IMG/VR virus record: IMGVR_UViG_3300020180_000033
Span: 1 to 44,904 of that record
Direction: 5' to 3' (one strand)
From: a virus
Length of the DNA stretch: 44,904 bases
The translations under genes were made by a program, and so were the position numbers. The notes beneath the pieces were generated by a model that was not told the DNA's origin, did no database searches, and saw only the letters and a program-made list of their open reading frames with translations. Numbering within the stretch: the first letter of the stretch is position 1; every line of letters begins with the position of its first letter. This document shows, in pieces, positions 41,085 to 44,904 of this stretch.

Positions 41085-41420
41085 GTGAGCACCATCGTGA
41101 AAGAGGCCTACGACGAGGGCGTCGCAGAGGCGCTCACCAGGTTCGGCCTCAAGGAAGCGGCAAACGAGATCCGCCTCAAAATCCCCAAGCGGGAGTTTCA
41201 CGGTTTCGACGCAGCGTTCAAGCCGCGCGTGAAGGCGCTCAAGGAAGCCAACAGCGAGCCACTCGAACCGCAGGCATCGCCAGAGCAGCCTGCGGAGATG
41301 CTCGCGGACATATTGCAGACGTTAAGCCTGCCAGCACCTCCAGGGGAGCAAAAACATACGGCGGTTGACCGCCCTGTTTTCTGGGGCAGCCCCACGGACG
41401 CAAGTAAAGGAGCCGTTTAA
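41085..41420 (+). CDS. Small protein with repeated N-terminal YxxGxxxA motif (111 aa, GTG start)
   Basis: The N-terminus IVKEAYDEGVAEALTRFGLK is one of five related N-termini in this cluster (41085, 41420, 43616, 44164, 44468). The rest is polar, with a basic region and a Pro/Glu-rich C-terminal third. No family recognised. The start is GTG 41085 after TATAAT, six bases upstream, so it may be leaderless. It sits between the two RNA polymerase halves. It might be an adaptor of the polymerase or a head-targeted protein. Confidence 0.6.
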   Translation: MSTIVKEAYDEGVAEALTRFGLKEAANEIRLKIPKREFHGFDAAFKPRVKALKEANSEPLEPQASPEQPAEMLADILQTLSLPAPPGEQKHTAVDRPVFWGSPTDASKGAV

Positions 41421-41812
41421 TGCTTACCAAGGCCGCAACAGAAGGTGCTCTTGCCGCGTGCGATCGGTTCGGTGTCGACGCAGAGAAGCTCGCCGCTGTG
41501 GCTCCCACGAGCTTCTTGTCCTCGGTAATCCCGCGGGCAAAGGCATTCGGGCAAAGCCAGTGGGGCGCCGCGAAGTCTCTCGTCAACAACGCACGTGGCG
41601 GACTTGGTGGACGGCTCAGCCCTGACTTCAAGGGAAGCTTGGACCCAAGCCACCTTGAACTGGGGCGCGCGGCACACCGCTCTCAGGCAGTAGGGAACCT
41701 CAAGACCCTCGCGCCTACGCTGGCCGGCGTGGGCGGTCTCGGCCTGCTCAATCACATGAGCAACAAGAAGAAGGAGCAAGCACAGCTCCAACAGCCGCAA
41801 GGACGTTTCTAA
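41420..41812 (+). CDS. Small protein with the repeated N-terminal motif (130 aa)
   Basis: 130 residues. Its start, MLTKAATEGALAACDRFGVD, shares the A-x-x-x-G-x-x-x-A-x-x-x-F-G pattern of the neighbouring small genes, with Thr in the place of Tyr. The middle is basic and Gly-rich (LVNNARGGLGGRL). A short hydrophobic segment with glycines near 105 (TLAGVGGLGLLNHMS) is followed by a Gln/Lys-rich tail. Start ATG 41420 has AAAGGAG upstream and overlaps the previous stop by one base. No family recognised. A role with the polymerase halves or in the virion is inferred from location. Confidence 0.6.
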   Translation: MLTKAATEGALAACDRFGVDAEKLAAVAPTSFLSSVIPRAKAFGQSQWGAAKSLVNNARGGLGGRLSPDFKGSLDPSHLELGRAAHRSQAVGNLKTLAPTLAGVGGLGLLNHMSNKKKEQAQLQQPQGRF

Positions 41813-41819
41813 AAAATCC

Positions 41820-43616
41820 GTGGCGACTCTCGGCGAACACATGGTTGACGCGATCCTACCCGCGGAGTATCGCGGCCGTGGAACGCTCACGAAGCAGCGC
41901 CTCAACGAGATCCTCGTCGATATCGCGAAGAAACACCCCGACAAATATCCGGACATCGTCACCAAGCTCAAGCGGCTCGGCGACGAATGCGCGACACTTG
42001 AGGGCATTTCCGTAGGGCTCGACGACATCGCGCCGCACTACGAAACACGCGATGCGATCGTTTCGCCGTTCCACGCGCAGTTCAACAAAGCGCAACCGCA
42101 TGAACGGGAGAAGATTCTCCTCGACGCACAGAACGCGGTCCTCGGCCACACCAAGAACAACTCCGGCACGATGGGTGAGATGGTGCGGTCGGGCGGTCGC
42201 GGCAACGCTGCGCAGCTCATGCGCATCATTGGTGCGCCTATCCTCGCGCGAGACGAACGTGATCGTATCGTCCCGTGGTTCATTCCCCGTTCTTACGCCG
42301 AAGGGTTGAAGCCGTCCGACGCGTGGGTCGCCGGCAACGAAGCGCGTATAAACGCGATCAAGTCGAACATCTCCGTCGTCGAACCGGGTGACCTCGCCAA
42401 GATCCTCGTCAACAACATGGGCGACAAGCTCATCTCGATGCCTGACTGCAAGACGTCCAACGGCGTCGCCATGAGCGCACGGGATGCACACGCGGTCGAT
42501 CGCTATCTCGCAAAGCCCGTGAATGGCGTTACAGCCGGCACGTTGCTGACCCCCCAGACGCTTCAGCACCTGGGCGAGGCGATGCTCATCGTTCGATCGC
42601 CTATGACGTGTGAAGCACCGCACGGCATCTGCCAGCGCTGCCAAGGCTTGTCATCGACCGGACACGTACACTCTATCGGCACGAACGTTGGCATGCGTGC
42701 GGCGCAGGCATTGTCCGAACCTCTTACCCAGTTTTCACTCAATGCCAAACACGGCGGGCGTATCACGACCACCGACGACCACGTGAAGCGACCCGAAGGT
42801 ATCAAGGGCGTGCGCCAGGTCCTCGAGGTCCCCGAGTCGTTTCTCCACAAAGCGACACTCGCGGACCACGCGGGAACAGTGGCTCGCATAGAGCCCGCAC
42901 CCCAAGGCGGAAACTACGTCTGGGTCGATCAGACCCGTCACTACGTACCGCCGGACCTGCGCGTCACGGTCACCAACGGCAAGCACGTGGAAGCGGGCGA
43001 TACGCTTTCGAATGGCGTGCCCAAACCTGACGAGATCGTGAAGCACAAAGGGCTCGGAGAGGGGCGGCGGTACCTCGTCGATACGCTTCACGACGTCTAC
43101 AAGAGGTCTGGTGCGGACATCGACCGACGCCATATCGAAACCCTGGCGCGTTCGGTGCTCAATCACGTGTCGATCGAAGACCCAGGGGAAGACGACGCCC
43201 ATGGGTTCATCAAGGGCGATATCGTCAACTACAATCGTTTCTCTGCCGCGTTGGCGTTGCATCAAAAGCAACTGCCTGTCGACGATGCAATCGGCGAAAC
43301 ACTCGCAGCGAATACGCTGCACTTTACGGCGGGAACTCACCTGACAGGTTCCGTGCGCGACACGCTCGTTAAGCACGGGATAAAGACGGTGGCGGTTGCG
43401 CAGAACGGGCCTCGGGCCGTTCCGATCATGCGCGCAGCGTCCCGCACGCCGTTGTTGAATCCAGACTGGATGGCGCGTCTGGGCCACCGATACCTCAAGC
43501 AGTCTCTGCTTGAAGGCGCGTGGCGGGGCGATGTAAGTGATACACACGGACCCCACCCGGTCCCGGCGTACGCTGCGGGAACCGAATTCGGCGAAGGATC
43601 GGAAGGGCACTACTGA
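41820..43616 (+). CDS. rpoC-like: RNA polymerase beta' C-terminal part (split subunit)
   Basis: 598 residues continuing beta' where the fusion protein stops. ATLGEHMVDAILP and SVGLDDI at the start match the region near E. coli residue 615. VRSGGRGNAAQL leads to the bridge helix, which is highly diverged (GNEARINAIKSNIS). A zinc site of four cysteines, C210, C264, C271 and C274, matches the second beta' zinc-binding domain. ALSEPLTQFSLNAKHGG is the trigger loop, keeping the catalytic histidine as H311. It ends near residue 598 after the DPGEDDAHGFIKGD region, shorter than cellular beta'. GTG 41820 aligns best with the family start, although ATG 41841 is an alternative and the ribosome binding site is poor. 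It works with the 36265 fusion and perhaps with the sigma factor at 27178. Confidence 0.93.
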   Translation: MATLGEHMVDAILPAEYRGRGTLTKQRLNEILVDIAKKHPDKYPDIVTKLKRLGDECATLEGISVGLDDIAPHYETRDAIVSPFHAQFNKAQPHEREKILLDAQNAVLGHTKNNSGTMGEMVRSGGRGNAAQLMRIIGAPILARDERDRIVPWFIPRSYAEGLKPSDAWVAGNEARINAIKSNISVVEPGDLAKILVNNMGDKLISMPDCKTSNGVAMSARDAHAVDRYLAKPVNGVTAGTLLTPQTLQHLGEAMLIVRSPMTCEAPHGICQRCQGLSSTGHVHSIGTNVGMRAAQALSEPLTQFSLNAKHGGRITTTDDHVKRPEGIKGVRQVLEVPESFLHKATLADHAGTVARIEPAPQGGNYVWVDQTRHYVPPDLRVTVTNGKHVEAGDTLSNGVPKPDEIVKHKGLGEGRRYLVDTLHDVYKRSGADIDRRHIETLARSVLNHVSIEDPGEDDAHGFIKGDIVNYNRFSAALALHQKQLPVDDAIGETLAANTLHFTAGTHLTGSVRDTLVKHGIKTVAVAQNGPRAVPIMRAASRTPLLNPDWMARLGHRYLKQSLLEGAWRGDVSDTHGPHPVPAYAAGTEFGEGSEGHY

Positions 43617-44411: not shown

Positions 44412-44415
44412 GGCC

Positions 44416-44421
44416 TACCAT
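44416..44421 (+). promoter_or_regulatory. Candidate -10 box (TACCAT) before the last gene
   Basis: GGCCTACCAT lies directly after the terminator, with a leader of about 40 bases carrying GAGGAG before ATG 44468. The preceding GGCC is shared with the boxes at 12332 and 34027. Confidence 0.4.
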
Positions 44422-44467
44422 TTTGCAGCTAAACAACCGCTTTCAGACGGCTCGAGGAGACGACAAC

Positions 44468-44904
44468 ATGTTCAAGAACGCATACGTTCGAGGCGTCACA
44501 AACGCGCTGATCCAAAGCGGTCATGTTGCGTTTCCCGACGAGGATTCCGCGGCCAAGATCGCGGACTTCATTGGCGATCGTGCGGATTTCGATCCGCACA
44601 ACATGACACGCGAAGTCGCGTTGAAGATCGCCAACGCCGTCATCGAAGCATCGGAACACCTCGTCGCGAAGGGCTACAAGGCCGCCGCGGTCACGATGAA
44701 GGTTGCTTCCGTCGAGGACCTCGGCAAGCTCGCCCATGCCCACGTCATCCACTTGATGGAGAAGGCCGCTGAAGGCTCGACCATCGAGGGCGGTGACAAG
44801 GGCAACGCGGAGTCGAACTCCGCTGAGGGCAAGATGGACGCGTCGCAGCGTCCGCCTGGCTACGCCGAGAACTCGCTCGGCAGCTCTGCCGTCGATACCC
44901 GCCC
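44468..44904 (+). CDS. Protein with the repeated N-terminal motif, cut by window end
   Basis: At least 145 residues are visible; the reading frame is open at the right edge. It begins MFKNAYVRGVTNALIQSG, another copy of the shared motif. The body is helical and mildly acidic (MTREVALKIANAVIEASEHL, SVEDLGKLAHAHVIHLMEK), then polar and Gly/Ser-rich after about residue 110. ATG 44468 has GAGGAG eight bases upstream and follows its own promoter candidate and the preceding terminator, so it is a separate unit. Possible roles are a virion or scaffold-associated protein; nothing fixes this. Confidence 0.65.
   Translation, partial: MFKNAYVRGVTNALIQSGHVAFPDEDSAAKIADFIGDRADFDPHNMTREVALKIANAVIEASEHLVAKGYKAAAVTMKVASVEDLGKLAHAHVIHLMEKAAEGSTIEGGDKGNAESNSAEGKMDASQRPPGYAENSLGSSAVDTR

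Follow-up and report, generated by a model that had tools for sequence, protein, structure and literature searches.

A 44,904-bp virus record (IMG/VR record IMGVR_UViG_3300020180_000033; G+C content of 58%), referred to in full as the window, carries at its right end a portal gene, two RNA polymerase (RNAP) genes, and five small open reading frames (ORFs) placed around the RNAP genes. The products of these five ORFs start with a common element, Y-x-x-G-x-x-x-A-L-x-x-F-G, which aligns across the first 20 to 26 residues and beyond which the sequences diverge. Comparison with related contigs indicated that this element is very likely a modular virion-assembly tag attached to otherwise different proteins. 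On balance, we favor a role for the tag as a capsid-targeting propeptide, similar in action to the capsid-targeting sequence (CTS) of phage T4 and removed at a K-x-A motif; we infer both the targeting and the cleavage.

Results

The tag in the window. The first-pass annotation of this DNA had described five ORFs with a common N-terminal element, and both an ORF check and a control matrix bore this out. All five are on the + strand. ORF 1 (41085 to 41420; 107 to 111 amino acids) lies immediately after the gene for RNAP beta-beta'N and starts with a GTG at 41085 or 41097, the latter being likelier because the Met-to-tag distance then equals that of the other tagged ORFs. Its tag (MKEAYDEGVAEALTRFGLKEAA; 41097 to 41162) ends in G-L-K-E-A, and its body has a homolog in contig G013. 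ORF 2 (41420 to 41812; 130 amino acids) is located between the two RNAP genes and has body homologs in G007, G010, and G013; its tag (MLTKAATEGALAACDRFGVDAEKLAA; 41420 to 41497) contains K-L-A at residues 23 to 25 (EKLA). The Tyr slot of this tag, previously read as Thr, is occupied by Ala6, with Thr as residue 7. The tag of ORF 3 (MLEDAYRAGMKEACDRFGIKEA; 43616 to 43681) ends in G-I-K-E-A, with A5, G9, A13, F17, and K20 invariant among 4 orthologs, while the C-terminal segment of this 183-amino-acid product (43616 to 44167) is glycine-rich and weakly hydrophobic. ORF 4 (44164 to 44391; 75 amino acids) is Pro/Ala-rich and has a counterpart, recognized by eye, in the same slot of G007 (50433 to 50645); in its tag (MTLKKSYDEGVRTALNHFCVRDVKIA; 44164 to 44241), Cys replaces the last Gly and K-I-A is present at residues 24 to 26 (VKIA). 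ORF 5 (44468 to 44904) is cut off by the end of the window, and the K-x-A nearest to its tag (MFKNAYVRGVTNALIQSGHVAF; 44468 to 44533) is found farther on, at residues 30 to 32 (AKIA). Contrary to the first-pass annotation, the five genes are not strictly consecutive, since the RNAP beta'C gene (41820 to 43616) intervenes between the second and the third.

The full-length ORF 5 product, present in a near-identical 95-kb contig (L002/G001; L002 positions 12649 to 13917), has 423 amino acids and, with body homologs in nine of the ten contigs fetched, is the most widespread tagged protein. It has several K-x-A sites, a Lys/Asp-rich C-terminal tail, and two internal repeats (EG[ST]TI.GGDKGN...KMDA..RPPGYA), and our guess is that it may be a core or scaffold protein. 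The ORF 5 protein had zero matches among 50,697 phage records, and Pfam and PHROG scans of the five tagged proteins of the window detected nothing significant. The four bodies recovered by gene calling, those of ORFs 1, 2, 3, and 5, formed four separate clusters without significant mutual similarity; the 75-amino-acid ORF 4 was outside this clustering.

Significance and distribution of the tag. When the window was translated in all six frames, matches to the near-strict motif close to a plausible start were confined to four of the five tagged ORFs. A search for relatives with RNAP beta'C gave 33 loci, and ten long IMG/VR contigs, one of them near-identical to the window, were read; the genes of these contigs were called with a home-made gene caller, and tags were located with a position matrix. 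As a control for circularity, a matrix was trained on the proteins of the relatives only, without the body clusters present in the window. ORFs 1 to 5 scored 30.8, 13.6, 24.7, 12.4, and 6.8 with this control matrix, and equal or higher scores were obtained 0, 7, 0, 7, and 28 times, respectively, among 258,623 internal windows. No further called gene of the window scored above 4. The search of the genome and its relatives that the first-pass annotation had proposed detected a tag on 69 proteins in the ten contigs and on no other called gene of the window. Removal of the tag left approximately 34 body clusters, and the alternative that the tagged proteins are full-length homologs of one family was examined and is not what is seen. 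Gly at position +3 was present in 68 of the 69 proteins and Ala at +7 in 67.

Homology and gene order were used to delimit the virion module, which runs from the portal gene to the point where the baseplate region ends in G013. At a 16-bit threshold, the tag occurred in 42 of 383 virion-module genes versus 10 of 1,177 other genes, and the tagged genes beyond the module consisted mostly of tagged arrays in three contigs. Many tagged genes adjoin neck, tail, or baseplate genes, a long way from those for the RNAP. No other viral contig was matched by a degenerate DNA probe designed on the tag of G011, and no paper on a shared N-terminal motif of the YxxGxxxALxxFG kind was found in the literature.

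Two kinds of candidate were rejected: strict motif matches within the portal protein (LGGQARALMTLGE) are part of portal homology, and an ORF at 12344 to 13327 of the window containing ALKEACDLYGI differs from the tag in its residue slots. The latter has a weak match to phrog_16160 at residues 39 to 65 (LPSSAFAWPEKRAFPLHTREHA region), before ALKEACDLYGI, and is conserved in eight relatives. Separately, a good tag-like stretch (AYANGATAAAAAFGVKEAF) was observed internally, 55 to 150 residues from the called start, in G013 gene 135 (116574 to 117026), G004 gene 169 (104837 to 105478), and G007 gene 49 (29361 to 30086); either the starts of these genes are miscalled or the tag can be internal.

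Modularity of the tag. Five adjacent genes of G011 start with MNPMLKIAYDYGC..AV and continue into different bodies, with identical codons at 148 of 164 shared residues. The near-identity of this DNA on different bodies indicates that the 5' end was copied recently, and tandem duplication probably helped to spread the tag in at least this one relative. Among the tags of the window, the same codon was used at only 38 of 72 shared residues, with a mean nucleotide identity of 0.47, and selection therefore acts on the protein and not on the DNA.

Small size is typical of the tagged proteins, many of which are rich in Pro/Ala or in Gly. A strong transmembrane segment was found in 0 of 61 tagged proteins, and the presence of ordinary membrane helices is thus not supported. 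The pattern GxxxGxxxG was present in 22 of the 61, compared with 39 of 243 untagged virion-module proteins and 52 of 1,026 other proteins. When 20 tagged proteins were compared with PHROG profiles, all matches were weak; they included pilot proteins for DNA ejection, tape measures, and an internal virion protein.

The K-x-A signature. G-x-K-x-A is a frequent ending of the tag. K.A starting between Y+10 and Y+19 was present in 39 of the 69 tagged proteins; the corresponding frequency was 11% in windows farther along these proteins and 4.5% in windows of nonvirion genes. An N-terminal-zone excess of K.A was also detected in untagged virion-module proteins (17% versus 4.9%). All 400 residue pairs of the form X-any-Y were then scanned without prior choice. 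K.A was the top pair in virion-module proteins of three groups of relatives, with observed/expected counts of 569/350, 445/308, and 109/69 (1.63-, 1.44-, and 1.58-fold enrichment), while other genes had values of 0.98- to 1.04-fold; the identification by unbiased scan of K-x-A as the most overrepresented pair in virion-module proteins is new in this analysis. The pair was also raised in Vibrio phage D181 (1.57-fold) and Salmonella phage Arash (1.40-fold), and L.K.A[AS] was observed 62 times versus 9 expected (6.9-fold). R.A, K.S, and K.G were not enriched in virion-module proteins, which argues for recognition of the K-x-A sequence and not for an effect of composition.

As a positive control, a scan of ten known substrates of the T4 protease gp21 ranked I.E first of the 400 pairs (31 versus 16.4), and K.A was not notable; I-x-E is part of the known gp21 specificity, [LI]-x-E. 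In the clade of the window, [LI].E was alike in virion-module and other genes (1.24- versus 1.20-fold), while K.A differed (1.59- versus 1.07-fold). Because of this enrichment and the result with T4, K-x-A would be the cleavage motif of the protease of the clade.

Head maturation protease and capsid. The protease gene, which would lie past the end of the window, was read in the relatives. In 13 of 13 sequences, the product of a conserved gene that precedes the gene for the major capsid protein matched the head maturation protease family PHROG 18299 (best, 1.8e-14). An AlphaFold2 model of the product was partial, with predicted local distance difference test (pLDDT) values of 70 to 84 in core blocks, and its three best PDB matches in Foldseek were all T4 gp21 (5jbl; probability, 0.77 to 0.84; E values, 0.036 to 0.06). 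Several viral matches of the model are named prohead protease; a profile search against PDB sequences gave coiled-coil noise only. His98 and Ser149-Met150 are invariant and of catalytic type; a conserved His and Ser are found together with a gp21-type fold match which is weak but top ranked. As judged from these profile and model matches, the phages encode a gp21-like head maturation protease, whose activity is predicted.

The protease domain ends in an invariant L-x-K-V-A (LEKVA in Arash and LQKVA in D181). The phiKZ/SPN3US protease gp245 cuts its own C terminus (PMC10052503) and gp21 is expected to do so (PMC9026906); by analogy, the terminal L-x-K-V-A would fit an autocleavage site. KEA is present in the N-terminal arm of the major capsid protein in 11 of 11 homologs. 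G013 gene 119 (106810 to 107388) and its orthologs, located upstream of the capsid gene, are likely scaffold genes whose products share a number of conserved sites (K-T-A, K-[IL]-A, and K-E-A), a feature expected for a core protein degraded by the protease. In G004 (115857 to 118694) and G010 (71660 to 74527), an intein-like insertion of approximately 360 amino acids was observed directly after the putative active-site Ser-Met-Gly of the protease, and the protease match in L004 to L007, L026, and L031 stops at the same point; an intein-carrying protease could be active only after splicing.

RNAP genes and gene order. The virion module starts in the window with the portal gene (34051 to 35823, + strand), whose ortholog in G013 matches the Arash portal. 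The gene at 36265 to 41055 (+ strand) encodes RNAP beta fused to the beta' N terminus, with an NADYDGD active site (Rpb2_6, 3.7e-46; Rpb1_2, 7.3e-21), and the gene at 41820 to 43616 (+ strand) encodes the C-terminal part of beta' (Pfam RNA_pol_Rpb1_5, 3.2e-18). The RNAP is split within beta', with two tagged genes between beta-beta'N and beta'C (41055 to 41820) and three after beta'C (43616 to 44904). In virions of the cultured phage Arash, RNAP beta and beta', including a homolog of the beta'C of the window, rank with the most abundant proteins (PMC10585845). With subunit identity assigned by Pfam and packaging seen in Arash, the RNAP of the window clade would be a virion (packaged) multisubunit polymerase. 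A phage sigma-70-family factor with regions 2 and 4, presumably a partner of the phage RNAP, is encoded at 27178 to 27972 of the window.

Discussion

The suggestion of the first-pass annotation that the element is a sorting, packaging, or assembly signal on different bodies is well supported by the modularity of the tag, the number of body clusters, the concentration in the virion module, the K-x-A signature, and the gp21-like protease. In the mechanism that we favor, an N-terminal amphipathic helix, K-x-A-Y-x-x-G-x-x-x-A-L-x-x-F-G, would dock unrelated, fast-diverging small virion proteins onto a common prohead partner, for which the scaffold or core is the likeliest candidate. Once assembly is complete, the gp21-like protease would cut at the K-x-A that often trails the helix, and the bodies would be freed inside the head alongside the virion RNAP and ejected with the DNA. 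We infer all four elements of this scheme, namely, docking through the helix, cutting at K-x-A, residence in the head, and ejection.

The closest parallel is the CTS of the T4 internal proteins IPI to IPIII, which is cut by gp21 (PMC9026906; Mullaney and Black 1996); ten residues suffice to send IPIII into the head and are removed by gp21 (PMC9026906). Both systems place one short N-terminal sequence on otherwise different small proteins, with an aromatic residue near the start (MKTYQEF in T4), and both are accompanied by a gp21-like protease; the K-x-A that follows many of the tags would correspond to the maturation protease motif at the end of the T4 peptide. The tag differs from the CTS in its sequence, its greater length, its presence on many more proteins, and its predicted cut after K-x-A and not after [LI]-x-E. 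On the features compared, the tag would work like the T4 CTS yet does not belong to a homologous family, with no resemblance to MKTYQEFIAEA and no [LI]-x-E. Phages phiKZ and SPN3US, with the protease gp245 (PMC10052503), resemble the predicted system in being large phages which package an RNAP and ejection proteins and have N-terminal propeptides with repeated protease motifs. Their sites are A-x-E and their propeptides are mostly 111 to 254 amino acids, with two of 20 and 24 residues, whereas the tag of the window clade has 22 to 26 amino acids, is common to unrelated proteins, and is associated with K-x-A. In Arash and D181, the portal, RNAP, and structural genes follow a similar order, the RNAP parts, portal, protease, and major capsid protein are homologous, and the capsid arm contains KEA. 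These two phages are distant relatives only (28 to 30% identity in beta'C), and the YxxGxxxAL tag was not found in Arash (whole genome) or D181 (42-kb region).

Several observations weigh against a cleaved capsid-targeting propeptide. G011 genes 75 and 86 to 90, G014 genes 73 and 74, and G008 gene 51 are tagged yet lie outside the virion module as drawn. The protease and the K-x-A trend also occur in Arash and D181, which lack the tag, so that neither RNAP packaging nor maturation in general requires it. The pair counts of related genomes are not independent, since homologs were counted repeatedly, and z-scores are inflated, although the groups agree nonetheless. The match to the gp21 fold is weak (E value of 0.036; TM score of at most 0.42 by target; mean pLDDT of 55). 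Finally, 30 of the 69 tagged proteins lack K-x-A between Y+10 and Y+19, and that of the ORF at 44468 is farther on. This last point would also be consistent with a docking helix which is not cleaved and which sorts proteins into the particle by binding a shared virion partner (scaffold, portal, tape measure, or baseplate), with K-x-A as part of the binding site. The modularity of the tag, its concentration in the virion module, and the presence of tagged genes in neck, tail, and baseplate neighborhoods also fit such a helix; we nevertheless consider it unlikely, if still a serious competitor, as the enrichment of K-x-A extends across virion-module proteins beyond the tags and is specific for Lys and Ala, and as K-x-A, found at invariant places in the capsid arm and where the protease domain ends, is better explained as a protease site.

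The remaining explanations are much less probable. Docking of accessory proteins onto the virion RNAP, which the first-pass annotation had raised, would account for the placement, seen in the window and its relatives alike, of two tagged genes between the RNAP halves and of further ones immediately behind these. It appears improbable given that many tagged genes adjoin neck or baseplate genes far from the RNAP, that five tagged genes of G011 are approximately 77 kb from the RNAP on the contig, and that Arash packages its RNAP without any tag (PMC10585845); the tag is therefore not how the RNAP itself is packaged. We give marginally less weight still to the idea that the tagged genes arose long ago by tandem duplication and that their bodies have since lost all recognizable similarity, the N terminus being merely the slowest part and having no targeting role. 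The tandem arrays, the almost identical tag DNA of G011, and the glycine-zipper theme shared by the bodies of that contig agree with duplication, which accounts for the spread of the tag but not for its retention: Gly and Ala were kept in no fewer than three divergent groups of relatives even as the bodies were exchanged, indicating selection on the tag itself. That the conserved element is a nucleic acid, such as a translation initiation or regulatory element overlapping the start codon, is very hard to sustain; the element is always at the 5' end of the gene, and several stop and start codons overlap, but the window tags use the same codon at only 38 of 72 shared residues, and conservation tracks residues and helix-like spacing.

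The capsid-targeting propeptide thus remains the reading that we favor. More tentatively, the clade may use a previously undescribed transferable address helix, together with a K-x-A-specific protease, to load dozens of interchangeable ejected proteins, with cargo genes becoming swappable by acquisition of the tag. If the capsid-targeting reading is right, the tag would pick out head cargo among small uncharacterized proteins by sequence alone, and K-x-A would predict cut sites. The scan of residue pairs, which recovers a protease motif from genomes, may serve other phage groups. The tag would also be a second sequence handle with which proteins could be loaded into phage heads, and the capsid-targeting principle known from T4 would then apply as well in a distant, uncultured clade that has a polymerase of its own.

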